Virus record (IMG/VR): IMGVR_UViG_3300009149_000155
Location: 1 to 32,934 of that record
From: a virus
Length of the DNA: 32,934 nt
Reading direction: 5' to 3' (one strand)
Shown: one piece after another, positions 4,510-30,126 of the stretch
Layout of the letters: each line of letters begins with the position of its first letter
Numbering within the stretch: the first letter of the stretch is position 1
Program-made: the position numbers and the translations under genes
The notes under the pieces: model-generated
Seen by the model: the letters and a program-made list of their open reading frames with translations, nothing else
What the model was told of the DNA's origin: nothing
Database searches by the model: none

Positions 4510-6915
4510 TTATGGTTCTGCAATTACTTCAGGATGTAACCAAAGATCAGTGCATGTTGCCGAAGCCACACCATCAGCCGGTTCTGCTCGACCCAATCTG
4601 ATAACTGTATCCCCAATAGCCGGTGGAGCCGTAAGTGAAACTTCACCGGGAGTTTCCCCAAGATAAACCGATGCTCCAACCGTGGCACCTAGTCCCGTTG
4701 TTAATCCAACACAGCTACCCTCTCTCACAACTATTCCAAAGTCACCATCTACAATAATTGCTGCTGTAGCACCAATGATATCTGACAATGAAGCAGTATT
4801 CGCATCTGCTAAAACCATTGTTCCATCGTCAGCCCATGCGACAATCTTATTTGCTGCAATTGGACTACCAGTATTATTTTTTACAGATTTGCCTAGTTCT
4901 CTTGGATATTGAATGTGGACTTCAGTTTCATTTGGTGCAGTCAACGATGCTGTTACCGCTTTACCTGTAAAATCTATTTTTCCAACAGTGCTTGCTACCA
5001 ATGCACCTTCATCATAAATATTTGGAGCGTCAACACCTACTGTACCATCTTGTCCACCACCAGTTTGGATTCTAAATCCAATTTTTGTTAGATTTGGAAT
5101 ATCGTAGATCAATTCGATCTGGTTGCCGATCCCTGCGCCAAGGTTCGCATCTTCTAACCAATCGTTGCCAACACCACTCGTTGCTTTCCTTCCATTAAAG
5201 AAGACCTCAAGCTGCCTCAGACCTGTTTGATATGTTTGTGCAGACCCAATCCCGAAAGGAGCCGGTAACGTTATCTTTGCACCGGCATTATAAGAAGCCG
5301 TTCCATCAGAAACCACCTCCTCATCATAGGATGGACCCATAACCATGTTGTAAATCGTCTCAACTATAGAATCTAGCTCTGACATCCCTTGCGTAAAGCT
5401 AGTAGCCGGAGTAATCCAATGATTAGAGGTATATGGGGGGGTAGAATCATACTCACTCACAAGACCAGTAGCAGTCATCCATTCTCCAGAAATACCGTCA
5501 CCAAGCTGGTTAGATTCCCCATCTTCAAGTTCAACCGACTGCCATCCATTCCCAAAATAGATCTTTGATCCTGACCTGTAACCTATTATATATCCACGAG
5601 TATTCAACTCATCAAGCACGTATGAGGCCGAAGTGGTTTTAAATACAGTCAAAGGACCACTGGGAGCCGTTCCGACATCTGGCAAAGTCACGTAAATCAT
5701 TTCACCGTCAAGAATATTTGACACTGTTTGAGCTGAAATCGTGTAATAAAATGACCTGCTTGGAGCAATTAGCTTTAAATCAGCATCCCAAGTGAGTTGA
5801 GTGTTGTCATAACCTTCAAGCATTCCATATGGGGATAGACTCGCACCGTTCGAGATATTTTCCGCTATCGCTTGATCTCCAGAAGTACCATTCGAATCGT
5901 TTGATAATTCAATCCGATCGCCAACACCTGATGTTGCAGTCATATTTATAGCTGCGGCCGTAATAGCCGCAATTATTGCCGTCTTAACTTGAGCAGGTGT
6001 CCCTTCTAGCGGAATAGTTATCGCATTGGTCGGACCAGATGAATCAGTATCGAACTCGAATACATAAGGACTAATCCCATCGTGCAAAGTAACAGTGTCA
6101 CCATCTGCAATCCCTGTATTTGGATCAGAAGCAACCGCTATCAATGATCCAACAGAAGGTTTTGGTAAATCCCAAGAAATTGTTCCACCGTCTGTCAGAA
6201 TGTAATTCATACGTTCTAAAAGATTAAGTGTACTAACCCCCTGTGCGGTATACCAAGCAGTTGTACCTTTCATTTCTTTTATGATTGTCTTGATTGCATC
6301 CGAATCGTTTTTGAGTGTAACGATCGTCTTGTCAGTCCTTGGACTTCCAAAATTCCAATTACTATCAAGATGCCAAAGGAAATCTCTCACGTCCGTTATC
6401 GTAGAAATAGAACCAGCCGATGTTAAAACTTCTGCGAGGGGAATTCTATTTGCTTGACTTGAAAATGAAATTGTATTGCTTATCAATGCGACTTCAGCAG
6501 TACATGTGACGGTATCAACACTTTGAATAAATTCTGCACCTACTCCTGAATTAGCAGTCGCATCCCAAAGTGTGACCGAATCTGTACCTGTTGTTCCACT
6601 CGTTATCTCCAATTCAACATAGTTTGTTAAATTGTCTTGAAGATCCACGGTTAAATCTATAGCACCAGCCGCTCTATAAACGAGGTTTTCAAATCCTGTT
6701 CGTTCCGCATTTAAAAGTAAAGAATCAGTTACACTGTTTACTTTTACCTGCAAACCACCATTGTCGATCACTTCCCAGTTTTGGATAATCTTGTTATCAA
6801 CATTGATGAATTCTTTATAATATTTATAAAATTCTTCAGCAATGAAATCCATTTGTGAAACGTAATAAGGAAGGTCATACCTTTGGTCTGCAACATATCT
6901 TTGTCTTTTCTGCAT
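4510..6915 (-). CDS. Large baseplate/tail fibre-attachment structural protein
   Basis: This 801-residue protein starts at an ATG preceded by AAAGG. The N-terminal ~250 residues begin MQKRQRYVADQRYD, include an alpha-rich segment (22-45), and look like a baseplate-attachment domain. Residues about 258-365 form an inserted beta-alpha-beta module ('ADGDTVTLHDGISPYVFEFD', then 'TPAQVKTAIIAAITAA') that resembles modules in the sheath and baseplate J genes of this window. Residues about 546-618 resemble the repeat unit of the neighbouring 416-residue fibre ('RQLEVFFNGRKATSGVGNDW'). Residues about 676-801 form a compact C-terminal domain with alternating short strands ('IVAWADDGTMVLADA', 'FGIVVREGSCVGL', 'VYLGETPGEVSL'), a pattern I associate with small beta domains of phage structural proteins. 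It probably sits between the baseplate periphery and the fibres. The exact function is unknown. Confidence 0.7.
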   Translation of the reverse strand: MQKRQRYVADQRYDLPYYVSQMDFIAEEFYKYYKEFINVDNKIIQNWEVIDNGGLQVKVNSVTDSLLLNAERTGFENLVYRAAGAIDLTVDLQDNLTNYVELEITSGTTGTDSVTLWDATANSGVGAEFIQSVDTVTCTAEVALISNTISFSSQANRIPLAEVLTSAGSISTITDVRDFLWHLDSNWNFGSPRTDKTIVTLKNDSDAIKTIIKEMKGTTAWYTAQGVSTLNLLERMNYILTDGGTISWDLPKPSVGSLIAVASDPNTGIADGDTVTLHDGISPYVFEFDTDSSGPTNAITIPLEGTPAQVKTAIIAAITAAAINMTATSGVGDRIELSNDSNGTSGDQAIAENISNGASLSPYGMLEGYDNTQLTWDADLKLIAPSRSFYYTISAQTVSNILDGEMIYVTLPDVGTAPSGPLTVFKTTSASYVLDELNTRGYIIGYRSGSKIYFGNGWQSVELEDGESNQLGDGISGEWMTATGLVSEYDSTPPYTSNHWITPATSFTQGMSELDSIVETIYNMVMGPSYDEEVVSDGTASYNAGAKITLPAPFGIGSAQTYQTGLRQLEVFFNGRKATSGVGNDWLEDANLGAGIGNQIELIYDIPNLTKIGFRIQTGGGQDGTVGVDAPNIYDEGALVASTVGKIDFTGKAVTASLTAPNETEVHIQYPRELGKSVKNNTGSPIAANKIVAWADDGTMVLADANTASLSDIIGATAAIIVDGDFGIVVREGSCVGLTTGLGATVGASVYLGETPGEVSLTAPPAIGDTVIRLGRAEPADGVASATCTDLWLHPEVIAEP

Positions 6916-6926
6916 TTGTCAATCCT

Positions 6927-8051
6927 TTAACAAATTATTTCAGGTTCAACAATCGTCCAATTAATAACAACTCCAGCCGCAACAATTGATTGAATAATTT
7001 GTTGTGCCAGTAAACGAGCCGCTATAATCCCTACTAGAAAGACCGAATAATCTGATCCATCCTGATTGGGAGCTTGATATGGTTTAACAATCACATTAAC
7101 CACTTCACCTGAACTATGATCTTTTGTAAATGTATAAGATGGATCAATTAAAATAGTTGTATTGTTTGGCCTACCCAAATATTTAACCAAAGATTCTTCA
7201 TTTGGATTTCCAACATTAAAAACCACGTAACCCGGAGCATCTGGAATTCCAGAAGCTTCAGTCATTATTAAGTTTGGGACAATAGCTCCAGCCGTTATGG
7301 TTTGTCCCAAAACACCTCTTTGTCTAGTCGTACTAAACAAAGCAGTTTTATCAGGTAAGAACGATCCGATATAAACTGGATGAGTAGCTGAAAACCGACC
7401 AACAGAAAAACCACTCAGATCATCTGAAACTGAAAATTGAATTACAACACCATTATCTCCAGCCGTATGAGATAAGATAATTTTAGAATTGATATCTTGT
7501 CCAAAAATACCACCAGCAATCTCGTCAATTACAAGCTGCTTCGTATCACCATCCAAATCAATTGTTATTTCTTTTAAAATATTATCAACGTTGGTTATTT
7601 CACCACTATAGTTATGGAAATGATGAGATCCCCTTAATCCTCTGGTCAAAGATGGGACCGATGACGGAATTTGAATCTCTATTTCGTTCGGTCTTATTTC
7701 ATGAACTAATACCTGTAGATTTCCTACCCCAAAAAAAACATCTAAAACTTTTTTGATGGTTGGAATAACTTGTTTAGGACTAAACGACAAGGCAGGGATT
7801 AATTGTCTAAACAAACTATCAGACAAATTAAATACTGTAGGTCTAAAAACACCTATGTTAGATCCCAAAGCATCTAAATATTGAAGTTGAGCCGTTACAA
7901 CATATAACTGTTCTTTTGCATCTTCGATTGCTTGAACTAGAAGATCATCTTCTCCAGCCCATGCGTACAGTATACCCCTAATATTAGGATTTACCGTTGG
8001 TCTAAACCTTGACGGGAGAAATCGAGACATTTTAGAAAGTTTAGTTACCAT
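6927..8051 (-). CDS. Baseplate protein, tail protein I / Mu gp48-like
   Basis: The start is the ATG at 8051, just after an in-frame TTG, because a GAGG ribosome binding site lies 5 nt upstream; this gives 374 residues. The first ~100 residues ('ILYAWAGEDDLLVQAI', then 'LQYLDALGSNIGVFRP') look like the helical N-terminus of tail protein I / DUF2313-type baseplate wedge proteins, which contain an L-D-x-L-G-x-x-x-G-x-x-R-P-like pattern. The middle is beta-rich and includes 'SLTRGLRGSHHFHNYSGEI', and the last 40 residues are helical. It lies directly downstream of baseplate J, where the wedge partner is found in P2-like and Mu-like phages. The name comes from position plus the N-terminal pattern. 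The protein is longer than P2 gpI (about 180 residues), so it has an extra central domain. Confidence 0.65.
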   Translation of the reverse strand: MVTKLSKMSRFLPSRFRPTVNPNIRGILYAWAGEDDLLVQAIEDAKEQLYVVTAQLQYLDALGSNIGVFRPTVFNLSDSLFRQLIPALSFSPKQVIPTIKKVLDVFFGVGNLQVLVHEIRPNEIEIQIPSSVPSLTRGLRGSHHFHNYSGEITNVDNILKEITIDLDGDTKQLVIDEIAGGIFGQDINSKIILSHTAGDNGVVIQFSVSDDLSGFSVGRFSATHPVYIGSFLPDKTALFSTTRQRGVLGQTITAGAIVPNLIMTEASGIPDAPGYVVFNVGNPNEESLVKYLGRPNNTTILIDPSYTFTKDHSSGEVVNVIVKPYQAPNQDGSDYSVFLVGIIAARLLAQQIIQSIVAAGVVINWTIVEPEIIC

Positions 8052-8058
8052 CAATACC

Positions 8059-8475
8059 TCAACTTATAGCAATATCTTCTTCGCTTACCCTTGCCAATTC
8101 ATTATCTGCTATAGCTATATTACTAGTCGGAACATTCATATCGACATCAAAAACACCATTGACCGCTTTTATTGCGACAAGAATCTCTGTAAGTATGACA
8201 TCAACACCTACTGCAAGCCTGTTTACATAATTTGAAACAGCACTCTTAATATCATTTGTGATAAGTGAAAGTGTTATTCCACTACTAGTTGTAATTACTA
8301 TGTCAAAACTAACTGGTACAATCACTGGCTCAATCACTTCTACATGAACGCCAGCCGCTCTAATTCCGGGATAGTTCTCTTGATCAGATTCGACACCATC
8401 AACCGTCCATTGTGCTACTTGAGCTAGTCCAGTGAAATATCGATATCCATCAATACCCCTTGCTTCTAACCAAAC
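8059..8475 (-). CDS. Baseplate J C-terminal portion, in the -1 frame
   Basis: This frame is open from about 8475 to a stop at 8059 and encodes 138 residues. It has no ATG, and the first possible start (GTG at 8337) lies in the middle of the domain without a ribosome binding site. The translation ('VWLEARGIDGYRYFTGL', then 'YPGIRAAGVHVEV', 'VGVDVILTEILVAIKAVNGV' and 'SNIAIADNELARV') closely resembles the C-terminal domain of baseplate J / Mu gp47 family proteins. Those typically have a 'YPGVKAAGV' segment, a V-P-V-x-h strand, a 'G-x-D-V-h-x-x-x-L' helix and end near 'VAIADDEVAR'. The upstream J frame ends in this region at 8466, so this is the missing end of J. It is reached by a -1 shift at the G run 8475-8478, or the sequence lacks one G. 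Coding identity is well supported; the expression mechanism is not. Confidence 0.8.
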   Translation of the reverse strand, partial: VWLEARGIDGYRYFTGLAQVAQWTVDGVESDQENYPGIRAAGVHVEVIEPVIVPVSFDIVITTSSGITLSLITNDIKSAVSNYVNRLAVGVDVILTEILVAIKAVNGVFDVDMNVPTSNIAIADNELARVSEEDIAIS

Positions 8476-11400
8476 CCCAATTGAGTATTCGCTGGACCGC
8501 CCGTAACCGATATCGCAGCGTCTTCACTAAAAGATAAAGATGCCAACTGTAATGCAGCAGAACCCATCTCTTTGATTTCAGCTTTAGTTTGGAGCAAAGT
8601 TATTTGATTATTGTTCCAAAATTCTTTTACCTGTTTTGCTGTGACTGGAAGTATTTGATATGTATCTCCAGTTAAAGGTGCAGATGGAAATGGTGCAGTT
8701 GTTGTAATTGTTCCACTTGCAGGTACATATGTTGAAATTACTCTTCGAACACCTGCTTCAGTCCCATCAATCATCTCAATTTCATACCCTACTATATCAG
8801 TAGCTATTTGCCATACGTTGTTCAAAGTAGAATCAATAAGTGTTGAAGGATCAGTTACCCCTGTAAGTGTACTTTCTCGATATAAAGGAGCCAAAAAGTT
8901 ATCAGTTAAATTATCGTCTACAACAATGATCAAATAATCATTAGTCGCAAAGGTAAATGGTCCTATATTTGAAACCAAAGCTGGTTGATGACTAATAAAA
9001 TTTTCAACTAATAATACTGGAAAATTCAAAGTATTATTTGCACCTGAGTCATCTACTCTAAAAGAACCACTATTCATTCTATTGGTTTTAAGTTTGATAT
9101 AAACAGCTTCGAATACCGAAGCAGTAATGCCAACTGTTCGACTATTGATAGCTCTTACTACTTCAACCAATGTTGCAGCACCAACATCAACAAAATCTCC
9201 AGATACAAACGTAACCGTCTTCGTTATTCCATCCACATACATGGTTAGAGTTTGCCCAACCAATCCAGAAAAGCTAGAAGCCGGTTCAGAAATAGCGAAG
9301 GCTCTGGTATCGTTTGATCCTAAAGTTACTTTATCGTTTGGATTAAGAGTTTCAACTAATTCAATTTGACCTACAAACCTATTAAGAGTGTAATCTCTGT
9401 TTGCACCAAATTCTTCAGTTTCACTAAATGCTAAAATCTCATTACCACCACAAATTTTTATTCTTGATTCTGTTGGAGGTGTCACAACTGCTGCTGCTGT
9501 TCTTTGAAGTCGTAACCAAAAATGAGATTCAGCATCGACCGCAGTGATAGCCCAGTCGGTAGGAGCCATGAATTTTAGATGACCGCTTTGAGTGAAACCT
9601 AAAGTTCCATCATGTACTCCTAAATTTGTCCATGCCGAGCCGTTCCAATATTCAAAAACTAAGTCCAGATCTGCACTTGCATTGACCAACAGATTAACAT
9701 AAACGGTATCGAATGGAACGTCTGCATGACCAAGATACACATAGTCCAAATTGACCACAAACATCTGAACGTTTGAAGCATTACCAGCACACTCAACTGT
9801 TCGGTCAACATTAGTTCCACCCTCTTCGCTCCAAACATGATCAAAAAGTTCTACAACACGCATACTCGATTCATTGTCACGTTCTAACATTGAAGCAAGA
9901 GAAATCCTTGTGTTGTTCGATGAAGACTTAGCGGTAAATCCTGTTATCCTTGCATTAATATAATTAACAAGCTCATTCACACTGACTATTGTAGCATTCA
10001 CAAAACCACTTGGAACAAACCAAATGTTTTGAATATTAGCTTTCGCACCATTTGCAATAACTGCAAGACTTGTTTCCATTGCAGAAAAATTATAGGTAGC
10101 TGGACTAGCACATTCAATTGATGCGGTTTTTCCATCTTTAACCAAAAGATGTAAGACATTATCTCTAAACAAATAAAGTTTGGTTGTATATTTAATATCA
10201 GTTTGGAACCCAAGCGCAACATTAGCTGATCCATCGACCACACGAATCTCTTCGTTATTATTTGATCTCGAAAAAATTCTTAATTTGACCCCATTGCTCG
10301 AAACACGAGATTCGGTAAGATTAGAAGATGAATTTATTTTTGTAAGAACCTCTTGAGCAGTCCCAGAACCCGGAACTGCAAAGTCGGAAGCTACAAATGT
10401 TATCGCTTCTTCTACCCCGTTAACATCTATATAAAGTATCTCACCATGAGATATGTTATAAGGCTCCGCATTTTGCGTCTCAGTAAACGCTTTCATCAGG
10501 GGAGTGTTCCCTATGCTCAGATACTTCTCACCGCCTGTAGCTGCAGGTACAACGACTTCTAGCCCTACTCTATTAAACTCAGGAATAAATCCTGTCCCAT
10601 CGTCGATGAAAAGCTTAACTACGTCAGTTGGAACCGTTGCCTCTCTGAGCGTAGCAGATACCACACGTTTGTTATCAGAAGTTGAAATCAATCCCTGAAC
10701 ACCTGTCACTATTGATTGAGGTGTCCCTCTTGATAAAGATTGAAGTGTAGACTTGATCCGATCTCTCAATGCTTGATCAGATTCATCGTCAACACCGTTT
10801 GTTACCCTTGTTGGATTTGTAACTGTGGCTCCTGTAAATGGTGCTGATCCAAAAGCTCTAATAGCACCGACCGGAACATTGCCTATTGTTCCCGATTGAG
10901 AAGCCGTCACTGCCACACCTGTCACTTCTGAATTACCATCCAGAATCGTAGCAGCAGCATCCAATGTAAAACTTATTTCTTCAAGAGTATCTGAAGCTGG
11001 AACCTTAACCTCTGTCCCAGAAGTAATTACCCTATTTCCACCTTGAGACAAAATTATTGTTTCGTCCGTCCCATGATCATTTGCAAAATTTCCCGTTAAA
11101 TTAAAAGTTACATAGTTAGCTTGAGTAGTGATCGAACTATAAACCAATGTTTCAACATTGGGAGTCCCTCTACCAACAATAATACTTCCAGTTGTAGGAA
11201 ACCCAGTCGCACTATCTCCATTGACGGTATTGCTACCAGCCGCAGCACCAGCCAAACCGGAATAAATACCGGTCACGATCTTAGTTATTGTGGAATCTCT
11301 GATAGTTACAGTTGTGCTTGATTCCGAAGCTTCAATTCTTTCAAGAGAATATTCTTCAGCACGATTGTCAAGATCCGTTCCTGTGGTGGAATCAAGAGAA

Positions 11401-11579
11401 TAACCTCTAATAATTTCAAGCATTTGGAAGTATTGTTCATCATCCTCTTGTGCTGCTGCTTCTAAAAGGAGCGTCCACACGGAACCATAGTTCACATCCG
11501 TCAAAGCTGTTGCTGATAACAACCGGGCCAACATATCTGAAAAAATCTCTGTAAACACTCTTGGTGAAAATAAACTCAT
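8466..11579 (-). CDS. Baseplate J-like wedge protein, enlarged (N-terminal frame)
   Basis: This 1037-residue frame has a strong ribosome binding site (AAGAGG). The core of the baseplate J / Mu gp47 family is visible: an N-terminal helix region ('EIFSDMLARLLSATALTDV' and 'SVWTLLLEAAAQEDDEQY'), the 'GTDLDNRAEEYSLER' motif (about 67-81), a strand region ending 'GTIGNVPVGAI' (230-240), and 'ESDQALRDRI...GTPQSIVTGV' (266-295), typical of J. The family is usually 300-400 residues. The excess lies between about 300 and 960 and contains a repeated module at about 376-460, a partial copy at about 510-575, and another at 773-857. The frame ends at 8466 before the J C-terminal domain, which continues in the -1 frame to 8059. 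J forms the baseplate wedge with gp25-like and tail-protein-I-like partners, and both candidate partners flank it here. The J call is strong. Confidence 0.92.
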   Translation of the reverse strand: MSLFSPRVFTEIFSDMLARLLSATALTDVNYGSVWTLLLEAAAQEDDEQYFQMLEIIRGYSLDSTTGTDLDNRAEEYSLERIEASESSTTVTIRDSTITKIVTGIYSGLAGAAAGSNTVNGDSATGFPTTGSIIVGRGTPNVETLVYSSITTQANYVTFNLTGNFANDHGTDETIILSQGGNRVITSGTEVKVPASDTLEEISFTLDAAATILDGNSEVTGVAVTASQSGTIGNVPVGAIRAFGSAPFTGATVTNPTRVTNGVDDESDQALRDRIKSTLQSLSRGTPQSIVTGVQGLISTSDNKRVVSATLREATVPTDVVKLFIDDGTGFIPEFNRVGLEVVVPAATGGEKYLSIGNTPLMKAFTETQNAEPYNISHGEILYIDVNGVEEAITFVASDFAVPGSGTAQEVLTKINSSSNLTESRVSSNGVKLRIFSRSNNNEEIRVVDGSANVALGFQTDIKYTTKLYLFRDNVLHLLVKDGKTASIECASPATYNFSAMETSLAVIANGAKANIQNIWFVPSGFVNATIVSVNELVNYINARITGFTAKSSSNNTRISLASMLERDNESSMRVVELFDHVWSEEGGTNVDRTVECAGNASNVQMFVVNLDYVYLGHADVPFDTVYVNLLVNASADLDLVFEYWNGSAWTNLGVHDGTLGFTQSGHLKFMAPTDWAITAVDAESHFWLRLQRTAAAVVTPPTESRIKICGGNEILAFSETEEFGANRDYTLNRFVGQIELVETLNPNDKVTLGSNDTRAFAISEPASSFSGLVGQTLTMYVDGITKTVTFVSGDFVDVGAATLVEVVRAINSRTVGITASVFEAVYIKLKTNRMNSGSFRVDDSGANNTLNFPVLLVENFISHQPALVSNIGPFTFATNDYLIIVVDDNLTDNFLAPLYRESTLTGVTDPSTLIDSTLNNVWQIATDIVGYEIEMIDGTEAGVRRVISTYVPASGTITTTAPFPSAPLTGDTYQILPVTAKQVKEFWNNNQITLLQTKAEIKEMGSAALQLASLSFSEDAAISVTGGPANTQLGFG
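8475..8478 (-). other. Candidate -1 frameshift site or missing G in baseplate J
   Basis: On the coding strand the in-frame codons are CAA TTG GGG TTT GGT TAG. Four consecutive G let a glycine tRNA on GGG slip back one base and still pair. The next codon is then GTT, which continues directly into the J C-terminal domain. The TTT in the A site would not re-pair well, so this is not a canonical X XXY YYZ heptamer. One additional G would also restore a single frame, so a homopolymer undercall is an equally good explanation. Confidence 0.55.
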
Positions 11580-11580
11580 T

Positions 11581-13575: not shown

Positions 13576-13584
13576 ATCATATCC

Positions 13585-20401: not shown

Positions 20402-20413
20402 TTTAGAACCTCA

Positions 20414-20450
20414 TAAAAAAAATTAATGAAAGGGTGATTCCCACACCCCT
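20414..20450 (-). terminator. Intrinsic terminator after the tail tube gene
   Basis: On the minus strand a 7-bp stem (20444-20450 paired with 20430-20436, one G-T pair) with a 7-nt loop is followed, after a short A/T spacer, by eight T at 20415-20422. It lies in the 82-nt gap between the tube stop and the chaperone start. A leaky terminator here would reduce chaperone and downstream transcription relative to the tube. Confidence 0.7.
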
Positions 20451-20483
20451 CTTGGTAATACCCCAAGTGGTGTCATTCCTTTT

Positions 20484-20924: not shown

Positions 20925-20936
20925 GATTTATCTCCC

Positions 20937-23090
20937 TTATGCGCTTTGCTGAATGTCAGCTAAGTAAATTGTTGGTAATGCAAAATCAAGTCCTTGAACT
21001 GGAGTGACAATAACATCAATGCTGGCTGTATTACCTTCAACTACTACCTTAAGGTTTTTATAACCAAGCCCATCATTAAGATCATCTCCAACAATAATAT
21101 CTGCTTTCAAGTGTACTTCAAATCTTGCTTTACAAAGATTTGCAATACTCTCGGCTGTACCAGTCTTAGCTTTAGTTCCTGTAAAGAGAGCTTCAAGATT
21201 ATAACGCAAATCATAAGCAACAAACCCGCCAGCTTCTACAACTGATACTCTGTTCCAAACAAAACTAGGATCAACACCATATGTTGTGTTACCAACAACA
21301 TCTCGATATCCACCTGTGTCTAATGGTTCTGAAAGTTGGCAGTTTGCTTCGATCAATTCATCATAATCAAGTTTAGGTTCCCAGCTACCATCTCGAACTC
21401 GATATCCACTGACATTTTCGAGTTTGAATGTATTTGGTTCTCCAACTTCTGACCCAGCTTGCAAACCAGCTTTTATACAAGCTTGTGCCCATGGATCAAG
21501 ATAAGCCGTCTGCTTTTGAGAGTAACTGTATACCAAAGGATCTTGACCACAAATTGAAACATACGCTGAAGACATTGCTGCTGCCATTGCTTTAAATTCA
21601 GTTTTTGATCCAAGAACAGAAACATAAGCATTTCTTTCAGATTTACCGCTTGTGCCCCACATCTTAATAACATGGCTTTTAGCTAACGCATTCACTGAAG
21701 AAATCGTGACCGCACCAGCATCTTCTGAAATTAATGGGACAACAATATTTATTCTTACTGTTTCAAACGCTTCAAACCCATTTGCATAATCAGAGTTTGC
21801 AGATACACCATTTGTTCCACCAGTAAAGAAAGCTGGAGTTGTAAATGTTGCAAGGGCACCATCAACATTTGTAATCCTTGCAGCACTAGCAATATCACTA
21901 GTGGCTGTTAAGAAATCAACAAAATCTTGAACATCTCGTTTAAGATCCAAAGCTACTGTTTCAATATTGATCGCATTGTAATAATCAAGTTCGATAGAAT
22001 CAAGATCACCATTGGGTCCAGTCAAAGTACATGTATAAGATGCATGTGCATTGATTACATCGACCAACTCTTGAAGAGTCATTTTTGAAACTAGCTCACC
22101 GTTCTCGGTCTTGCCGATAATGAAATCAAGATCGTCTGCTGGAGTAGCTGCACAGCTAGTCGTAAGTTTTCGATCTCCAGCCGCATCTGCAATCGTCAAA
22201 GTTGAAGTTACTGCTGCACCTGTATAAAGGATTTGGATTTGAGATACACCACCAAGCTCTTGTTCTGCGTCTTCAATCAAGCTACCTTTTTTCAAGGTAA
22301 TATAACGAGAACCTTTTCGGCCTCTATCTGTACCAGCGATACCAAGGATAGTATCAAGTGTTGAAGTAGCACTAACCGAAATATAACCAAAATCCAATTT
22401 AGCAGTTGTAAGAACTGAGGTTAAAATTTCAATATCAACTTTCAAACCGTTTGCGGAAGCTGTGACTGGTCTGGAAGGGGACCATCTTGCATCTGTATTC
22501 AATTCAGTTTCAATAGCAGAAGTTGTTTCAGCTGCACCTGTCAGAAGAGAAGTAAAAGTATAAACTGTTCCATTGATAGTTACGATCAATGTGTCGCTAC
22601 CACCAGACAAATCAAATGGTCCATCGATTGTTCCATTGATGATCGCATTCAAATCTGTGATCGAACCAACCGATACGTTATCAACGTTGGCATTGTTCTC
22701 ATCTGCACCATAATTTACAGTTTCAAGATCGACTAGACTAAGAGGAGTCGCCTCGTTATTAGCTAGTCCTAATACAGCCTTTGTTGAATTATTTGTTTTC
22801 CAAATGATCACTGTACTTGCACCGTTTGCAATTCGAGCATCATTTGAAGGTTCAACTAAAAGTCCTAATGCATCTGCTATAGGTCCAGACTTGTATCTCG
22901 CCTTTGCAGATTGAATTTGAGTCCCTTGTAACACATCCAAAACACCCGGCTCACCACCCACTGATTCACCTACTATGCCAACAATACCCGTTGGCTGTAA
23001 TGGGAATCCTGTGAGATTTTGTACTTTTAAAGCACTGTAGGAACCCGGCTTTCGAATGGTCTTTCCATTAAATACACGTCTAATTGCCAT
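20937..23090 (-). CDS. Tail sheath protein with internal module insertions
   Basis: This 717-residue protein has a GGGAG ribosome binding site. The start 'VFNGKTIRKPGSYSALKV' followed by 'TGIVGIVGESVGGEPG' is a typical sheath N-terminus. The C-terminal third has the sheath core order: a 'VWNRVSVVEAGGFVAYDLRY' strand region, then 'GTAESIANLCKARFEVHLKA' and the final strands 'GYKNLKVVVEG...IDVIVTPVQGLDFALPTIYL'. Residues about 450-560 carry the alpha/beta core ('NAYVSVLGSKTEFKAMAAAM', 'AQACIKAGLQAGSEVGEPNT'). Between about 135 and 420 lie additional beta-rich segments. Two of these, about 158-252 and about 294-380, resemble the module repeated in baseplate J. Simple sheaths are often shorter (about 390-500 residues), so the surface is likely decorated by these insertions. 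Confidence 0.92.
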   Translation of the reverse strand: MAIRRVFNGKTIRKPGSYSALKVQNLTGFPLQPTGIVGIVGESVGGEPGVLDVLQGTQIQSAKARYKSGPIADALGLLVEPSNDARIANGASTVIIWKTNNSTKAVLGLANNEATPLSLVDLETVNYGADENNANVDNVSVGSITDLNAIINGTIDGPFDLSGGSDTLIVTINGTVYTFTSLLTGAAETTSAIETELNTDARWSPSRPVTASANGLKVDIEILTSVLTTAKLDFGYISVSATSTLDTILGIAGTDRGRKGSRYITLKKGSLIEDAEQELGGVSQIQILYTGAAVTSTLTIADAAGDRKLTTSCAATPADDLDFIIGKTENGELVSKMTLQELVDVINAHASYTCTLTGPNGDLDSIELDYYNAINIETVALDLKRDVQDFVDFLTATSDIASAARITNVDGALATFTTPAFFTGGTNGVSANSDYANGFEAFETVRINIVVPLISEDAGAVTISSVNALAKSHVIKMWGTSGKSERNAYVSVLGSKTEFKAMAAAMSSAYVSICGQDPLVYSYSQKQTAYLDPWAQACIKAGLQAGSEVGEPNTFKLENVSGYRVRDGSWEPKLDYDELIEANCQLSEPLDTGGYRDVVGNTTYGVDPSFVWNRVSVVEAGGFVAYDLRYNLEALFTGTKAKTGTAESIANLCKARFEVHLKADIIVGDDLNDGLGYKNLKVVVEGNTASIDVIVTPVQGLDFALPTIYLADIQQSA

Positions 23091-23102
23091 TTCTTATCTC
23101 CC

Positions 23103-23390: not shown

Positions 23391-23405
23391 TTTGACCTAC
23401 CCTCC

Positions 23406-24092
23406 TTATTCAAACTGTACGTCAAGATCAATTTTACCCACCATAGGCACTTTATCTTTCTGGAACAGAGCAAATGTCTGAACCGTTGCAGTTACAAATC
23501 TTGAAAACATATGAGAAGGAAGGTATTCATTCAGTCGTGAAAGATCTGTTGCACTGTATGTAATATTCTTCAAACCCTCACTGCCCAATTGATCCCTGTA
23601 TGCATTCAAAAGATAGATAACAAGCATATACAAATACTTTGTTAAGTCCGGTCCTCCTACAGCATGTATTCCTATCAAGATTTCATCTTGTATTGAAGTA
23701 TATCCTATTTCTTTTCGATCTGTAACATTTTCATCTCCATCTAATGTATCAACTTGCCCTTCAAAGTCATTTAATCCTGAATATTGAAGCAACTCTGATC
23801 CGCTTGAAAGATTTATTGAAATAGTTGGAGAAGTCTCGCTTTCGAGTGGGAATGACTGAATAATTTTAATCTCAGTATTATTGATATATGTTGCGATCTC
23901 ATCAATTTTAGATTGACCATAACGGGCACTGAGGATTGACTTGCAAAGGTTTCCAAAAACATAATCTTTTGCATCTGGAGTTGTTCTAAACCATTCAAAC
24001 CCTTGTTCAAGAATATATTCAAAAATAAAGTCTACCGGATACAATCCATAATATTGATCAGTAATAGCTTCTTCATTAGGGTAAACGTACAC
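23406..24092 (-). CDS. Neck / tail terminator-like protein
   Basis: This 228-residue protein starts at a GTG whose first G is shared with the upstream TAG stop; GGAGG lies 4 nt upstream. It contains helical ('DFIFEYILEQGFEWFRTTPD') and beta segments ('EIGYTSIQDEILIGIHAVGG', then 'PDLTKYLYMLVIYLLNAYRD') and a C-terminal strand pair with 'TVQTFALFQKDKVPM'. An alternating helix and strand layout just upstream of the sheath is typical of tail terminator or tail completion proteins, which cap the tail tube and join the neck. The name is inferred from order and size; no diagnostic motif is visible. Confidence 0.6.
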   Translation of the reverse strand: MYVYPNEEAITDQYYGLYPVDFIFEYILEQGFEWFRTTPDAKDYVFGNLCKSILSARYGQSKIDEIATYINNTEIKIIQSFPLESETSPTISINLSSGSELLQYSGLNDFEGQVDTLDGDENVTDRKEIGYTSIQDEILIGIHAVGGPDLTKYLYMLVIYLLNAYRDQLGSEGLKNITYSATDLSRLNEYLPSHMFSRFVTATVQTFALFQKDKVPMVGKIDLDVQFE

Positions 24093-24862
24093 TAGACCTC
24101 CAAAGTCGCATTAACAATTTTATCAAGTTCTTGATCTGCAAATCTTTCAACTTCTTTAAGAATATTATGTGCTTTAATTCCCGGATGTATCCACGCACTA
24201 GGCTTAGAATTCTCACTCATAACTCGCCAAGTCATCAACATGCCTTGACCTCTTTGCTTAGTTGTCCCTGTAGGTTTTTGAATCCTTGTTAAACCTTGCA
24301 AATATTTATGAACATCAGCACCTTTTGGAATCCGCTTGACAGGTCCACTTTTAACCTGACCACTCGCACTCCTTATCATCTTATCTAATCCATACTGGCT
24401 CACTGCTTTTTTTAAATGCGTTTGTAAATTTGCATCTTTCGCTTTTCCAGTATACCCAAGCCTTGCATCTGAAGATGTAGAATGTCTGAACGGTATGATC
24501 ACATATCTCTTTCCATCTTTACCAACTTTTGATTTCGAACCACCAAGCCAACCGGGTCTTACATTTTTCATATCAAAAGATGGCATCCCATGCTCAATAT
24601 TATTTGGCATAGTACCAACAAGTGTAATTTCATAAACAGGTTCCCCACCATCAGTCCTAGTGGTGAAACTTTCAGCTTGTCTTAGTCCATTGATATAAAT
24701 TTCTCTTGATGTCTTTAGACGGGTTTGAGCTAGCCTGATCCATTCAGACTGAGACGCTTTCGCTAAACCGGCTATGGCTCGACGGAACACATCAACCACA
24801 CCCATTTCAAGCGTGTTAATGTCAACACCAAGCCCTTCAAGTTTTGCGTTAACAGAAATCAA
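24092..24862 (-). CDS. Neck protein, HK97 gp10-like tail completion
   Basis: This 256-residue protein starts at a TTG overlapping the previous TGA (TTGA) with a purine-rich AAAGGAAGAG stretch upstream; the next in-frame Met is 20 residues later, so TTG is preferred. The N-terminus 'LGVDINTLEMGVVDVFRRAI' and the helix 'LAKASQSEWIRLAQTRLKT', followed by 'SREIYINGL', resemble HK97 gp10-type neck proteins. A central basic region ('GWLGGSKSKVGKDGKRYVII') and a C-terminal 'PSAWIHPGIKAHNILKEVER' segment are also typical of this group, where a W-x-H-P-G motif precedes the last helix. It probably bridges connector and tail terminator. The similarity is by eye. Confidence 0.68.
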   Translation of the reverse strand: MISVNAKLEGLGVDINTLEMGVVDVFRRAIAGLAKASQSEWIRLAQTRLKTSREIYINGLRQAESFTTRTDGGEPVYEITLVGTMPNNIEHGMPSFDMKNVRPGWLGGSKSKVGKDGKRYVIIPFRHSTSSDARLGYTGKAKDANLQTHLKKAVSQYGLDKMIRSASGQVKSGPVKRIPKGADVHKYLQGLTRIQKPTGTTKQRGQGMLMTWRVMSENSKPSAWIHPGIKAHNILKEVERFADQELDKIVNATLEV

Positions 24863-25602
24863 TCTATGTCTCTTCCTTTGTTATAGACCATGTAATCCCA
24901 CCTTATATGAGCTTGCTGTGGTAATTGGACAGGTTCTTTATAAGGTTTATTTTTAGAATCGTAGTAATAACGATTTTCATGTATCAAATCTAAAACCCTG
25001 AATGTTGGTAATGTAGGATATAAAAATGAATACAAAGTCCCTACAGCCGGTTTGTTTGAAGTGAGCCAAGTCAAAGTTCTACCAGTCAATGAATAATCCG
25101 TATCTCTCACATATTTATTTCCAAACGAATCAACCAGTGAATAAAATCCACCGTCACTTGTGTCTGAAGACACATACCGTGTGTAATCAATATTATCGTT
25201 TGTTCTTTTTATGAATTCATTGAACTGAGAAGTTTGATCGATCATTTCAATTTTGTACCAATAAGCCAATCTAAAATCAGGCTTTGTGGTCATGTAGGCA
25301 TCTTTAACATCATATTTAGTTTTGTCTAATTCTTCTGACAATTTTACACTTTGTATGAATGCCCATTCTTCAATGGCACTCGCATCTAAATCAATTGTTT
25401 GATTACCATTACAGGTTGCACAATCTAAAGGATGATTAACGCTTGATGTATCAATATCCAATCCACTTCTGTTCGGACATAAAATCGCAGGGGTAATTCG
25501 AACACGAGTACCTTGATCTTCAATCAAATGATCAAAATCCTCTACCACCAAACTTATTCGTCCGGGTTTCCTTAAAGGTTTTGGATATGTGTTCTTGACC
25601 AT
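24859..25602 (-). CDS. Neck/head-closure candidate with possible metal-binding cysteines
   Basis: This 247-residue protein starts at an ATG with a weak ACGGAA ribosome binding site. A C-x14-H-x3-C-x2-C arrangement (C42, H57, C61, C64: 'ILCPNRS', then 'NHPLDCATCNG') could bind zinc. The remainder is mixed beta structure with several aromatic strands ('FRLAYWYKIEMIDQT', 'GGFYSLVDSFGNKYV', 'IRWDYMVYNKG'). It lies between a connector-like protein and a gp10-like protein, the usual position of a head-closure or stopper protein. The function is inferred from context only. Confidence 0.6.
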   Translation of the reverse strand: MVKNTYPKPLRKPGRISLVVEDFDHLIEDQGTRVRITPAILCPNRSGLDIDTSSVNHPLDCATCNGNQTIDLDASAIEEWAFIQSVKLSEELDKTKYDVKDAYMTTKPDFRLAYWYKIEMIDQTSQFNEFIKRTNDNIDYTRYVSSDTSDGGFYSLVDSFGNKYVRDTDYSLTGRTLTWLTSNKPAVGTLYSFLYPTLPTFRVLDLIHENRYYYDSKNKPYKEPVQLPQQAHIRWDYMVYNKGRDID

Positions 25603-25620
25603 TAACTTTTTCCGTCATCG

Positions 25621-26400
25621 TTAGGCTACAACCATACTTATCCCTTTTAGGTTAAGCCTTATGTTAATCAATTGTTCTTTGATCTGCTTTTCATACTGAA
25701 GAATTCTTGCTCCATAACCAGCATTTGTAGCCGACGAAGTAGTTCCAACGGATTGACTTAATCCATCTAATGAAATTGACTTCGATGCGATACCAGCACC
25801 AGCTATTAAATCTCCAGCTATATTCAAAGGACCAGTCGCAGCTTTCATTCCAATCAACTCTAAAATATCGAATGGAACCTGTCCTTCTTCGAAACCAGCC
25901 TCGTAATCGATAAAGATAAGATAAGGTATGTAATCTCTTGCCGTGTAAAGCAACGGCAGAAAGGAACCACCTTGTCCCATTAAAATCGCACTAAAAGTTC
26001 CCTCAGTTGGAATAAGATTTACCATTCCACCGACCGAATCAGTTTTAAACCACGTAGGATCGTATGATAAAATTTCATTACTGATCGGAAACTGAATGGC
26101 ATATTTTGTAACTTTTCTAACTGGGAAGTTATAAAGCTTCACACATCCAAAGTTTGTATAATCAATGTAGGTATAATCATGAGCTTCATTCGTGATAACA
26201 GTTGGATGGAGAAGTATTTGAAGTTCTCTCTCAATCCATTTTTGCGCTGATTTAATATAAAATTCAATCAACGTATTAGGCATTTCATTCCCATTGTCAT
26301 CCGTTAGGTCAACACCGAATAGGAAAGTGTCTTTGACAAACTGTGCTGTAATAAGCAGGTCATTGTTCTGAGGTCTTATGTTGTAAGCAATTTCACTCAT
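25621..26400 (-). CDS. Head-tail connector (adaptor) protein
   Basis: This 259-residue protein has an AAGG ribosome binding site. The N-terminal ~70 residues ('FVKDTFLFGVDLTDDNGNEM', then 'TLIEFYIKSAQKWIERELQI', 'LLHPTVIT') match the helical start of gp6-like connectors, where an acidic segment leads into two helices. The middle is beta-rich ('CVKLYNFPVRKVTKYAIQF'), and a helix-rich Ala/Gly segment ('DILELIGMKAATGPLNIAGD') follows. The C-terminus ends with an amphipathic helix. Such adaptors extend the portal ring. It is the first of the neck genes after the capsid block, as expected. Confidence 0.65.
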   Translation of the reverse strand: MSEIAYNIRPQNNDLLITAQFVKDTFLFGVDLTDDNGNEMPNTLIEFYIKSAQKWIERELQILLHPTVITNEAHDYTYIDYTNFGCVKLYNFPVRKVTKYAIQFPISNEILSYDPTWFKTDSVGGMVNLIPTEGTFSAILMGQGGSFLPLLYTARDYIPYLIFIDYEAGFEEGQVPFDILELIGMKAATGPLNIAGDLIAGAGIASKSISLDGLSQSVGTTSSATNAGYGARILQYEKQIKEQLINIRLNLKGISMVVA

Positions 26401-26411
26401 GTCAAATTACC

Positions 26412-26705
26412 TTAATAACTAAGATCGATAGTATATTTTCTACACCTCTCGAACTCAGAGCAAACACTGTCATGAAATTTAAACTTCAAATCAGTAGCTT
26501 GCTCTTCTGTTATATCAAAAAAAAATTTAGCTTTTCCCGGCTTAACTTTTTCTACTTTTTTAATTCTGTGACTACCAGCTTCGCTTGTTTGTAGATAAGT
26601 CGCAAACAGGTAATTTACTGTGACATAGTAATTTATTTTATCTCGACTATTTGAGCAAGTCCGTCTGCTGATAATGTCGCTTTTATTATATTCACTGTGT
26701 CCCAT
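26412..26705 (-). CDS. Small virion-module protein resembling DUF5659
   Basis: This 97-residue frame starts at the ATG at 26705, preceded by AGGTGG only 3 nt upstream. It overlaps the C-terminal coding part of the preceding gene by 73 nt. Residues about 24-97 ('INYYVTVNYLFATYLQTS', 'KKVEKVKPGKAKFFFDITEE', 'FHDSVCSEFERCRKYTIDL') resemble the small phage domain DUF5659, in which a strand and helix are followed by 'K..FFF.D' and a final 'F......RKS.IY' helix. The first ~23 residues are rich in Ser, Arg and Asp and may be read-through of overlap DNA. No better ATG, GTG or TTG start exists downstream. The function of the family is unknown. Confidence 0.6.
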   Translation of the reverse strand: MGHSEYNKSDIISRRTCSNSRDKINYYVTVNYLFATYLQTSEAGSHRIKKVEKVKPGKAKFFFDITEEQATDLKFKFHDSVCSEFERCRKYTIDLSY

Positions 26706-27028
26706 AAACCACCTGATCTTATTACGATTGGCACATTAGCTGGTAAAATGATATCGGATGTGGTCGCAGCAGAAGCTCCAACACTCAATCTAAAATGAGC
26801 GTTAACAGTTGAAATTAAACGATATGCCTTATTGGGTTCCATAGCCCTTACCGATGAAGTCCCATTCACTGCACCCGAAATTGGAAGAACATTAGTCGTT
26901 CCACCAACGATTTTAGGAAAATAAACCGGACCATCAATAACTTTTCTCGAAGACGAAAATGCATCATGCTCTCGCCTAAGAATCTCTTCAGTAGTTAATG
27001 CCTGTTCTTTTGTCCATTCAGTAGTCAT
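26633..27028 (-). CDS. Small beta-domain virion protein (possible capsid decoration)
   Basis: This 131-residue protein starts in an ATGA overlap with the upstream gene. Residues about 1-30 are helical and charged. Residues about 55-131 are strand-rich: 'EPNKAYRLISTVNAHFRLSV', 'SDIILPANVPIVIRSG', 'TVNIIKATLSADGLAQIVEI'. A 'Y-R-L-x-x-T-x-x-H-F-R-L/I' strand followed by 'LPAxVPxxIR' occurs in small proteins of phage head modules that may coat or cement capsids. Position just after the major capsid gene supports a head role. The function is inferred. Confidence 0.65.
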   Translation of the reverse strand: MTTEWTKEQALTTEEILRREHDAFSSSRKVIDGPVYFPKIVGGTTNVLPISGAVNGTSSVRAMEPNKAYRLISTVNAHFRLSVGASAATTSDIILPANVPIVIRSGGLWDTVNIIKATLSADGLAQIVEIK

Positions 27029-27321
27029 TTTTTATCAACCTTCTTAGGGTGTCTTCTTTTTTCTTCAACTCTTTTTTCAACTTTTTTTTCTTCAACTGAC
27101 TTTTTTTCTTCAACTGACTTTTTTTCTTCAACTGGCTTTTCTTCTTCAACTGGCTTTGTTTTTTTGAAACCAGTTAAAACCACTTTAAACCCAACTACTT
27201 TAAGTGCATTAGCAATTTCTAAATCGTCTGTTTCAACATATCCCTTATCATCAACCTTAAGAGTCTTGTCCTTTGCAAAAATTAAAATCTCTCCAGCTAA
27301 ACTTTCCATTTTTAATTTCAT
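27025..27321 (-). CDS. Small head-module protein with charged repeat tail
   Basis: The start is set at the ATG at 27321 because AGGAG lies 7 nt upstream, giving 98 residues beginning MKLKMESLAG. Residues 1-50 form a small domain ('SLAGEILIFAKDKTLKVDDK', 'YVETDDLEIANALKVVGFKV'). Residues about 55-98 are low complexity: six-residue repeats of the type (K/E)-(K/S/P)-V-E-E-(K/E), ending with a basic cluster. The tail is likely disordered or a charged helix. The small domain followed by a Lys/Glu-rich tail next to the capsid gene suggests a minor virion or assembly factor. No specific family is recognised. Confidence 0.68.
   Translation of the reverse strand: MKLKMESLAGEILIFAKDKTLKVDDKGYVETDDLEIANALKVVGFKVVLTGFKKTKPVEEEKPVEEKKSVEEKKSVEEKKVEKRVEEKRRHPKKVDKK
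27088..27159 (-). repeat. Four tandem copies of an 18-bp repeat within a coding sequence
   Basis: On the plus strand the unit is ttcttcaactgacttttt, in four contiguous copies (27088-27105, 27106-27123, 27124-27141, 27142-27159), with degenerate partial copies toward 27060. The 18-bp period keeps the frame and encodes the V-E-E-K-K-S type repeats. Copy number could vary by slippage. Confidence 0.85.
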
Positions 27322-27328
27322 TATCAAG

Positions 27329-27333
27329 CTCCT
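27329..27333 (-). promoter_or_regulatory. Ribosome binding site deciding the start of the repeat-tail gene
   Basis: AGGAG lies 7 nt before the ATG at 27321. It shows that the in-frame TTG at 27327 is not the start. Confidence 0.7.
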
Positions 27334-27342
27334 AAATTATAA

Positions 27343-27363
27343 GGTCAACCCAATCGGTTGACC
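27343..27363 (-). terminator. Perfect hairpin downstream of the capsid gene (second of two)
   Basis: Eight-bp perfect inverted repeat ggtcaacc / ggttgacc with a 5-nt loop. On the minus strand the following sequence is TTATAATTT, not a clean T run, so it may stabilise the capsid mRNA end or act as a weak terminator rather than a strict one. Confidence 0.5.
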
Positions 27364-27369
27364 CAACAA

Positions 27370-27390
27370 ATGGGGGGTCACCCCCCCCAT
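27370..27390 (-). terminator. G/C-rich hairpin directly after the capsid gene
   Basis: Eight-bp perfect stem (atgggggg / ccccccat) with a 5-nt loop, 11 nt after the capsid stop, followed on the minus strand by TTGTT. The stable stem with a weak U tract fits partial termination or protection of the abundant capsid transcript. Confidence 0.6.
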
Positions 27391-27400
27391 ATCAACTAAA

Positions 27401-28870
27401 TTACGCACCAACAAGATCAGGAACAGAAAGACGACCGATATTTTTAATTATCATTATCCCTCTAGGTCTGAAAATAATTGGAGTATTGTAATATAATTGC
27501 ATCCATCGAATGCTTGAAGCCACTGTTGCTAGTGGAAACTTAAGCATTGGAGAAAGTTCACGAAGAGTAAGAACTGTTTCGTCGAACTGTCCTATGTAAG
27601 CTGTGCCAAGACCCGGAAGATTTTCGTTTCCATCCAAGAAAATGGTAGATGCACCAGCAGACACAACTTCAGCTACAAGATACTTTGTACCAGCAGCACC
27701 ATCAGCAATACGAGTTCTGTAAACTCGATAACCTGCTGTGTTGTCATTACCCGAAACTGCGCCTCTAGCAATCGTCAACTTAGCTTCATCAGAAGCACCA
27801 AGCACTGCGATAACAGCAGAACCAGAACCAGTCGTAGAAGAAGACTCACCATTTCTGGAGATGGCTGTTACTTCATACGCATATGTTCCGAATTCAGCAG
27901 TTTTAAATCCACGGCTTGTAGATTTAGCTTGAACAGCAACCGTAACAGTCGCAGGAGCGGTTGGACATGATGAGTTGTTAGCAGTAGTTGGAGCTTGCTT
28001 ATCAATTCCTAAGAAAACGTCAGGCTTAAGTGTCAGAGTACCACCGGCAGTCTTAACTTTTCTGCTATCAAAACCAGTTGTAACTTCTCCATCACCTACT
28101 GGAATACCATACCGGCCTTTGGAGAAGAAACCTACGTTGTAATCTCGATGAGCCGTGTGTGGAAGATAACATGATGTTGGAAAATAATGGTTGTCTAAAA
28201 GCACTCTCGCAGCTTCTGAAAACACACCTTCTGTCAACGGCTGATTTCTTAAGTCAATAACGTGTTCCGTAGAAACGTCAGGCTGAAGATCACCTGCAGT
28301 GTCAGAATCAGCGTAACCTGCAAGTAGCTGAGACTTTAATCCGTCAAAGGATTGAGAAATAATTGAGCTATCACCACTGAAAAGATTTTCTTCAATTTGT
28401 CGAAGCATCCACATCGCACCGTTTTTAGTTTCAAGAGCAACAACGTTTCCGTGTGCTGGCTTAACTAAAAGCATTGGGTGTGTAATTTCACGAGTTGTAC
28501 CCATGAACTTGACGAACTGAACTTTTCTTTGATACTGGCTATCTTCTGTCCGAGGAAGTCCACCCTCATTGATAAAGAAGCCACCTTTTCCCCCGTATTT
28601 CGAGAGCATGTTGTACTCTTCAACGGTGTTGTAGGCTTTTGATTTAGGAATATCGTTATAAAATACGATGTTTTTCATCATATAAGAAACGATTTTTAAT
28701 GTTGCATCGAGAACTTCCACTCGCAATGCACCGCCTTGGCTTTGAGATGCTGGATCGGTAGCGTAACCTGCTTGTAACGCCTTATTGATCTCCATTACTT
28801 GCTGGGGATCACTAAGTCCGAAACCATCCCCATGCCCTTCAAATTGTTTTGGATCGATTACTGGATACAT
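27401..28870 (-). CDS. Major capsid protein with a fibronectin-III/Ig-like insertion
   Basis: This 489-residue protein has an AGGGGG ribosome binding site. The fold appears HK97-like: an N-terminal helical arm ('DPQQVMEINKALQAGYATDP'), a strand/loop region with 'SKYGGKGGFFINEGGLPRTE', 'KVQFVKFMGTTREITHPMLL' and 'WMLRQIEENLFSGDSSIISQ' (about 155-170), and a C-terminal region 'MLKFPLATVASSIRWMQLYY' ending 'TPIIFRPRGIMIIKNIG'. Residues about 303-416 look like an inserted FnIII/Ig-like domain with 'FGTYAYEVTAISRNGESSST' and 'AGYRVYRTRI' strand pairs. It lies between the scaffold/protease genes and the neck genes, as expected. The insertion probably sits on the capsid surface. It is not necessary for the core fold and was probably acquired as a module. 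Confidence 0.88.
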   Translation of the reverse strand: MYPVIDPKQFEGHGDGFGLSDPQQVMEINKALQAGYATDPASQSQGGALRVEVLDATLKIVSYMMKNIVFYNDIPKSKAYNTVEEYNMLSKYGGKGGFFINEGGLPRTEDSQYQRKVQFVKFMGTTREITHPMLLVKPAHGNVVALETKNGAMWMLRQIEENLFSGDSSIISQSFDGLKSQLLAGYADSDTAGDLQPDVSTEHVIDLRNQPLTEGVFSEAARVLLDNHYFPTSCYLPHTAHRDYNVGFFSKGRYGIPVGDGEVTTGFDSRKVKTAGGTLTLKPDVFLGIDKQAPTTANNSSCPTAPATVTVAVQAKSTSRGFKTAEFGTYAYEVTAISRNGESSSTTGSGSAVIAVLGASDEAKLTIARGAVSGNDNTAGYRVYRTRIADGAAGTKYLVAEVVSAGASTIFLDGNENLPGLGTAYIGQFDETVLTLRELSPMLKFPLATVASSIRWMQLYYNTPIIFRPRGIMIIKNIGRLSVPDLVGA

Positions 28871-28885
28871 TCGTAAACCCCCTGA

Positions 28886-29626
28886 TTAAAGTATCGCTTG
28901 AAGCAGTTTATTAGCTTCAGGTGTAACAAAACTGAATGTCTCAAAATTGATGACATCCTCTTGACTCAAATTGCCCTTCTTAACAAGATCACACATTGCG
29001 TCAGTAATTGCTTTCTTAACAGTGAGTGAATCTTTTCCTGCCAAACTCTTATAAAAACCTTCTTCGCTTGTAGTTGGAGCTTCAACAGCACCTTCTTCTA
29101 GTGTATTTTCAAAAGTTCTTTCACTTTTAGAAATACCTTCAATTGACTTTGAACTTGCTGGCTTGTCACCAATGATTCCAACTTTTTCACATAGAGCTTT
29201 AAGGACTATGCCAAGATTACCAATAGACTCACTTGTGTCATCAAGTCTTTCCATAATCTCTTCAAAACGAGAATCTTGCGCTCTATCGCTTTTAACGACA
29301 AAATCTCTAAGACCATTCACTTGCTGGGCAGTATGGTCAACTAAAGATTTTAGAAAGCTAGAAACTTCAACTTTCGTTTCTACTTCTACTGGCAAATTTT
29401 CTTCGAAGCTTGCTGGCTCGTCAGATTTTTTTGCTTCACCCTTTTTCTTTTTGTTGTCATGCTTGTCGTTCATGTTCTCTCCTGCTACTCCAAGTGTTCC
29501 ACTTTCATCTGCTGCACCATTACTGGAATTCAGATCACCATCAGTTGGAACCCCTTTCTGAACTTCACCTCTAGGAAGGTTTAATTCGTTAAGGGCATTG
29601 GAGATGTCTTCTTGTTTGATAGCCAT
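28886..29626 (-). CDS. Probable capsid scaffold or head assembly protein
   Basis: This 246-residue protein has a strong AAGGGAGG ribosome binding site. The N-terminal ~80 residues are polar, Ser/Asp/Lys-rich and likely disordered ('NDKHDNKKKKGEAKKSDEPA'). Residues about 85-155 are predicted helical and coiled-coil-like ('SFLKSLVDHTAQQVNGLRDF', then 'SRFEEIMERLDDTSESIGNL'). A second acidic helical part ends 'SFVTPEANKLLQAIL'. A soluble coiled-coil protein immediately before the capsid gene and after the protease is the usual scaffold position. Sequence does not prove scaffolding function, but composition and order support it. Confidence 0.65.
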   Translation of the reverse strand: MAIKQEDISNALNELNLPRGEVQKGVPTDGDLNSSNGAADESGTLGVAGENMNDKHDNKKKKGEAKKSDEPASFEENLPVEVETKVEVSSFLKSLVDHTAQQVNGLRDFVVKSDRAQDSRFEEIMERLDDTSESIGNLGIVLKALCEKVGIIGDKPASSKSIEGISKSERTFENTLEEGAVEAPTTSEEGFYKSLAGKDSLTVKKAITDAMCDLVKKGNLSQEDVINFETFSFVTPEANKLLQAIL

Positions 29627-29640
29627 TAAAAAAACCTCCC

Positions 29641-30126
29641 TTAAAACCTAAATTTTAACTTCTCTACTGCATTAACAGTCGAAGAAGTACCTGCCTCTGT
29701 AGTTATAGCATGAGTAGTCACAGCTTGATTTGAACCACCAGTGGTAACAAAAGCTATAACATGTGGTGCAAAATCAGCATAAGTCACCGTAAGAACCTTA
29801 TCAGAAGTTATATCCACAGATGTAACTAACAGTTCTGCTTCTAGTGCTGCAACGATTAATGATTGAGTATTTGCATTGCTAGTAGCGTAAACTACTGGTG
29901 TACTCGCAATTGCCACACCATCAAGCGTTATAGCAATTGAGTTAGATGCCTCAAAAACTATATCATTAGTGAGCGTAGCTACTTCATTGGTAGTAATACC
30001 AGCAAGCACATCAATAATTTCATCCACCTTGGTGAGTAATGCCGAGTAAGCTTTTGTCGGATCGTCAAAGATATGCTCTCCTCCAACCTCATCACCTGAC
30101 AACCTTCCTATCTCAGTTGATAGCAT
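29641..30126 (-). CDS. Small head-region protein with beta-rich module
   Basis: This 161-residue protein starts immediately after the protease stop (TAA then ATG) with GAGGAG 8 nt upstream. Residues 1-45 contain a helix ('TKAYSALLTKVDEIIDVLAG'). Residues about 55-145 look like the recurring module found in other structural proteins of this window: 'NSIAITLDGVAIASTPVVYA', an Ala-rich helix 'NTQSLIVAALEAELL', then 'SDKVLTVTYADFAPHVIAFV'. Function is unknown. The placement between protease and scaffold suggests a minor head or decoration protein. Confidence 0.65.
   Translation of the reverse strand: MLSTEIGRLSGDEVGGEHIFDDPTKAYSALLTKVDEIIDVLAGITTNEVATLTNDIVFEASNSIAITLDGVAIASTPVVYATSNANTQSLIVAALEAELLVTSVDITSDKVLTVTYADFAPHVIAFVTTGGSNQAVTTHAITTEAGTSSTVNAVEKLKFRF

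Follow-up and report, generated by a model that had tools for sequence, protein, structure and literature searches.

The window, i.e., the whole stretch of 32,934 bases analysed here, is the virus record IMGVR_UViG_3300009149_000155, and its virion genes form one block on the minus strand. The block encodes a protease, a 161-residue head protein (p161), a scaffold-like protein, the major capsid protein (PHROG 752, E 2e-85) and neck proteins, and also the sheath (PHROG 279, E 2e-27), the tube, tape-measure-like and baseplate genes, baseplate J, and fibre-base proteins, among them one of 801 residues (p801). Baseplate J matches Pfam Baseplate_J (E 3.8e-13) and the wedge subunit family PHROG 6 (E 2.5e-23). 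The original prediction was that one β-α-β module recurs in several of these proteins; the genes and coordinates that it named agree with the window, and the segments concerned are listed in Table 1.

Table 1. Features of the window, with residue ranges in the host protein and positions in the window.
Feature	Residues	Position	Strand	Remarks
Baseplate J (wedge protein)		8466..11579	-	1037 aa as read; frame broken near 3' end
Accessory block of baseplate J	361-1037	8469..10499	-	contains every module copy of baseplate J
J1	370-463	10191..10472	-	hhalign P 99.8 to J3, 98.6 to J2; family HMM E 2.2e-38
J2	497-580	9840..10091	-	hhalign P 98.6 to J1 and J3; family HMM E 2e-8
J3	766-860	9000..9284	-	hhalign P 99.8 to J1; family HMM E 3.8e-32
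J4 (half copy)	978-1036 (to 1037)	8472..8648	-	helix and last two strands
C-terminal core of baseplate J		8059..8465	-	other frame; includes ORF 8059-8337
S1 (sheath)	156-258	22317..22625	-	profile homology and AF2 model
S2 (sheath)	284-395	21906..22241	-	J-family P 3-8%, slightly above background
F1 (p801)	252-374	5794..6162	-	clean insertion in the 801-residue fibre-base protein
H1 (p161)	47-150	29677..29988	-	~100-residue extra domain; insertion real, family unproven

When the window segments are compared pairwise as single sequences (BLASTP, phmmer), no significant similarity is found, and profiles were therefore needed to test the claim of a shared module. For baseplate J, 65 relatives were collected; sheath relatives were drawn from the contigs that carry them, p801 relatives were taken from the flanks, and the profiles for the J1/J2/J3, sheath and p801 comparisons were built from 5–26 relatives. 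Among J1, J2, and J3, hhalign returns probabilities (P) of 98.6–99.8 with E-values down to 7e-28, which bears out the prediction that these three segments share one module. J4, a copy missing from the original list, aligns with J1 (P 97.5), J3 (P 96.5) and the pooled family (P 98.9). Judged by their sequence profiles, J1, J2, J3 and the half copy J4 are one homologous family. Relatives of baseplate J are ~1172 residues long with the accessory block and ~610 residues without it (21 long and 21 short by coverage). Near position 8469 the reading frame of baseplate J changes, and the C-terminal core seen in the relatives runs on in another frame (window 8059–8475, minus strand); frame 1 extends the 'GIDGYRYFTGLAQ...' of the relatives, which belongs to this core. 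The break may reflect an error in sequencing, or the gene may be truly damaged.

In the sheath, S1 aligns with the pooled J family (~100 copies) at P 94.6 and E 7.3e-8. An HMM made from J1 and J3 copies only, scanned over whole phage records and so independent of any choice of segments by eye, matched S1 in the sheaths of four phages (E 7e-5 to 0.0036). On these profile matches, the first sheath segment is a member of the J module family, as had been proposed. The AlphaFold2 model of sheath residues 100–430 has a pLDDT of 81, with values of ~90 or more across most of S1, where the predicted order of elements is strand-strand-helix-strand-strand-strand (ββ-α-βββ). Some distant sheaths cross the S1 site uninterrupted and have no S1. 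The core of S2 is recognisable in distant sheaths, and S2 is probably an older sheath domain.

The segment in p801, F1, is linked to the J copies by profiles at P from under 1 to 54%, varying with the profile pair. For an unbiased ranking, 19 virion proteins (p161, which has no alignment across H1, left out) were divided into 146 overlapping segments, each of which was compared with the J profile. After baseplate J itself, the order was sheath 101–260 (S1), p801 251–410 (F1) and sheath 251–410 (S2), with the background at or below 16.8; F1 is the top match outside the baseplate and sheath, and in the reverse ranking the best outside segments for the F1 profile are J2 and J3, the excess of F1 and S2 over background being only modest. 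Distant phages have a further copy in a neck-type protein, and this copy forms a bridge, matching J at P 98.7, S1 at P 92 and F1 at P 54 (E 1.3e-4). The AlphaFold2 model of p801 residues 244–387 (pLDDT 88.8, pTM 0.80) has the strand and helix order of S1, plus an extra short strand ahead of the helix. Among predicted viral structures (BFVD), a baseplate J-like protein matches this model best (TMq 0.72; rmsd 2.5; 131 aligned columns with 21% identity), and the further matches include tail sheath, major tail and kelch proteins. A tblastn search of phages with F1 alone found none. Weak by profile and good by predicted fold, F1 very likely belongs to the module, and for this protein the original prediction holds on fold and on a rank above background, with profile support reaching P 54% at best.

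In p161, H1 is an insertion, and relatives of 70–80 residues lack it. In a shuffling test of H1, one of six profiles reached 1 of 100 shuffles and the rest gave nothing; searches of viral contigs and phages with H1 alone found no relatives. The proposed spread of the module over structural proteins is thus supported for baseplate J, for S1 and, very likely, for F1, and is not established for S2 or H1. In the profile comparisons, J1–J4 and S1 are joined, F1 is joined weakly, and S2 stays at the P given in Table 1.

A resemblance to the hook-IN modules of flagellin had also been suggested, and it holds at the level of the fold. When the F1 model was compared with the PDB using Foldseek, the first eight matches were all flagellar cap proteins or flagellins (probability 0.82–0.99, E 0.006–0.07), and FliD 5h5v (0.98) and FliC 4nx9 (0.99) were among the matches; the E-values for flagellar chains, 0.006–0.08 in all, point to a likeness but are not strong. 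The model of S1 and S2 together matches the phi812 sheath first and then, more weakly, domains D2–D3 of FliD from E. coli and Bdellovibrio (5h5w, 0.77; 6kty, 0.80), ranked below the sheath matches. A fold like FliD/flagellin D2–D3 is thus found for the F1 and S1+S2 models, and for the J copies through their homology to S1. The strand and helix orders of the two modelled copies, S1 and F1, correspond to each other.

At the level of sequence, the likeness to flagellar proteins is fainter. No member reaches the gathering threshold of Flagellin_IN (PF07196), 22.7 bits: 3 of 27 J members match, with a best E of 0.0036 (J3 scores 15.6 bits), 1 of 12 F1 members matches at E 0.025, below the Pfam cut-off, and the window record has no match. 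Because of this, we call the module FliD-like and not a member of the hook-IN family. Against a FliD alignment, the J family scores P 32.7 and J3 P 39.1 (E 3e-4), the aligned part being helix-strand-strand, about half of the module; segments with J3, J4, and J2 rank first in the proteome. One row of that alignment (L154) is in the wrong frame and was retained, which most likely adds only noise to the FliD comparisons. The J profile found nothing credible among PDB sequences, the best match being a ribosomal protein at E 0.09.

Modules of this kind, the FliD-like "FD" or lateral domain, have already been reported in phage sheaths and capsids (2023–2025). The insertion domain (InD) in the sheath of Vibrio phage XM1 resembles FliD D3 (PMC10457771), and the lateral sheath domain of the Adele/phiTE type, for which nozzle and auxiliary capsid proteins are named as further carriers, is said to have no direct part in contraction (PMC12846349). 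As for these FliD-like sheath insertions, the model that contains S1 matches FliD D2–D3, but here the wedge protein also has the module as tandem copies, p801 very likely has it too, and the homology between wedge and sheath copies is visible in sequence. In crAss001, the FD domain of the auxiliary capsid protein gp36 contacts the A-domain of the capsid protein (PMC10172136); its host protein is a different one, and the likeness is drawn through the PDB neighbours FliD 6IWY and FliC 4NX9, which are common to the S1+S2 and F1 searches. In Myxococcus phage Mx1 (OR576727), baseplate J-like and kelch proteins carry the module by sequence, at E ~1e-16, with fewer detected copies than in the window and in different, longer host proteins. 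To these reports, the present analysis adds tandem copies and a half copy in the wedge protein, empty insertion sites, and links in sequence between the copies.

Empty sites occur among the relatives of baseplate J, p801, and p161, and they show insertion between conserved parts of the host proteins. Six phages have F1 at the p801 site, and in ~15 relatives the site is empty, and cleanly so, as in, e.g., TIDWEKA/GVETLRW. Some of the copies are absent from close relatives, so the module behaves as a mobile accessory. A sister clade has an extra copy in a second baseplate protein, encoded by the gene that follows baseplate J; none is seen in the window counterpart bp375. In more distant phages, a copy is found at the N-terminal side of a protein that is homologous to p259 of the window in its C-terminal part. 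Proteins of ~580 residues with the module in their N-terminal part are encoded in L164 (1696–3441, plus strand) and L165 (1375–3105, minus strand); the C-terminus of the former is related to p259 (E 6e-14), which itself has no module. A 2528-residue baseplate J-like protein in L110 (104–7687, plus strand) combines one J copy with a tandem series of about five F1-type copies, full or partial. A search of GTDB genomes with the J1 alignment yielded no relatives.

In a tree of 102 copies, grouping is mostly by position, such that J1 falls with the J1 of other phages and J2 with J2; S1 is a single clade (support 100/100), and the baseplate copy of Myxococcus phage Mx1 lies within the J1 group. The module alignments are short, so the deep forks of this tree are not resolved. 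Because copies cluster by position as far down as Mx1, the duplication inside baseplate J would predate the group. F1 is present in a subset of the p801 relatives, and large proteins of other phages contain the rest of its known kin; on the sequences, F1 appears as a separate gain, in a pattern that fits horizontal gain.

The original prediction went further and suggested that the copies arose by duplication within this genome. Several copies do lie within one genome, but they cluster by position and not by genome, and J1 of the window is up to 63% identical to J1 of other phages, against 29% between its own J3 and J1. Recent intragenomic duplication is ruled out by this position-wise clustering as the source of J1–J3 and S1, and as an account of how one copy could have spread through the proteins of this phage we consider it highly improbable. 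We regard as likely, instead, that the copies represent a module of the FliD/flagellin D2–D3 type ("hook-IN", "FD") inserted in virion proteins, with an ancient tandem duplication within baseplate J, gain and loss elsewhere, and a role in lateral contacts. The module, a small β-sandwich unit, would be of the α/β kind and ~95 residues long, ββαββ and often with one more strand. It would have been duplicated in tandem within baseplate J long ago; its gain and loss in other proteins would be explained most simply if the domain was transferred.

A narrower reading accepts common ancestry for baseplate J and S1 only, and takes F1, and any of S2 and H1, as convergent β-α-β structures. The variable profile links of F1 agree with this, and a resemblance in fold could by itself be convergent. 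It is harder to reconcile with the leading rank of F1 among the 146 segments outside baseplate and sheath, its own preference for J2 and J3, the neck-protein copy that joins it to J, and a best BFVD match that is itself baseplate J-like at 21% identity; on balance, we find convergence unlikely. Another reading takes the modules for promiscuous phage-type Ig-like domains, and it has a precedent, since Ig-like additions to sheath proteins are described as common (PMC9230969). The Ig-like domains of phage virions (Fraser 2006, cited in PMC9230969) are likewise mobile accessories inserted in many virion proteins. Their fold is a different one, however: an Ig β-sandwich has no central helix, while both modelled copies, S1 and F1, have one, and flagellar proteins head the matches of the F1 model, with antibody-type matches only at E >0.8. 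An Ig-like identity is therefore very improbable. Least probable of all is a chance likeness between β-rich, Ala/Thr-rich phage sequences, which would be in line with the insignificant single-sequence comparisons but not with profile E-values of 1e-8 to 1e-28 and a separation from the 146 background segments; for J1–J4 and S1, these values and that separation refute it.

With respect to function, the FliD-like module may be compared with the domains of XM1, Adele/phiTE and crAss001, and because its fold and placement match theirs, we infer that contacts on the outside of the virion or weak surface binding are the most likely role of the copies. The surface decoration or inter-protein contacts suggested in the original prediction are thus plausible and in keeping with the published cases. 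An outward-facing lateral domain would add contacts between subunits and weak surface binding, leaving the contraction core untouched, and by analogy the module probably serves to cover or reinforce the surface of the virus. A more far-reaching idea, which we put forward tentatively and think doubtful, is that one FliD-type module is reused as a standard outer part of the wedge, sheath, and fibre base, of the second baseplate protein and neck of relatives, and perhaps of the head, with copies that touch each other or share one ligand to give a decorated surface over the whole virion. Scattered structural reports of FliD-like phage domains can be brought together in one family that is traceable by sequence and has filled and empty sites, and with it comparative genomics can follow how such an accessory domain of the virion is gained, lost and spread.

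Some further likenesses were noted in the window. By eye, the start of the major capsid protein (27401–28870, minus strand, residues ~26–62) resembles the end of the protease (30127–30936, minus strand, residues ~182–210) in a stretch of the "AGY...GGAL" type. The capsid stretch has a second match, in six relatives at E ~1e-5, in an upstream ORF of 273–547 residues, which in G001 directly precedes the p161 homologue and is probably the protease. A 416-residue protein (3248–4498, minus strand) seemingly contains three to four repeats around L-x-V/L-F/Y-(K/R)-(N/D)-G, again by eye, and a stretch of p801 at residues ~555–640 resembles these repeats.
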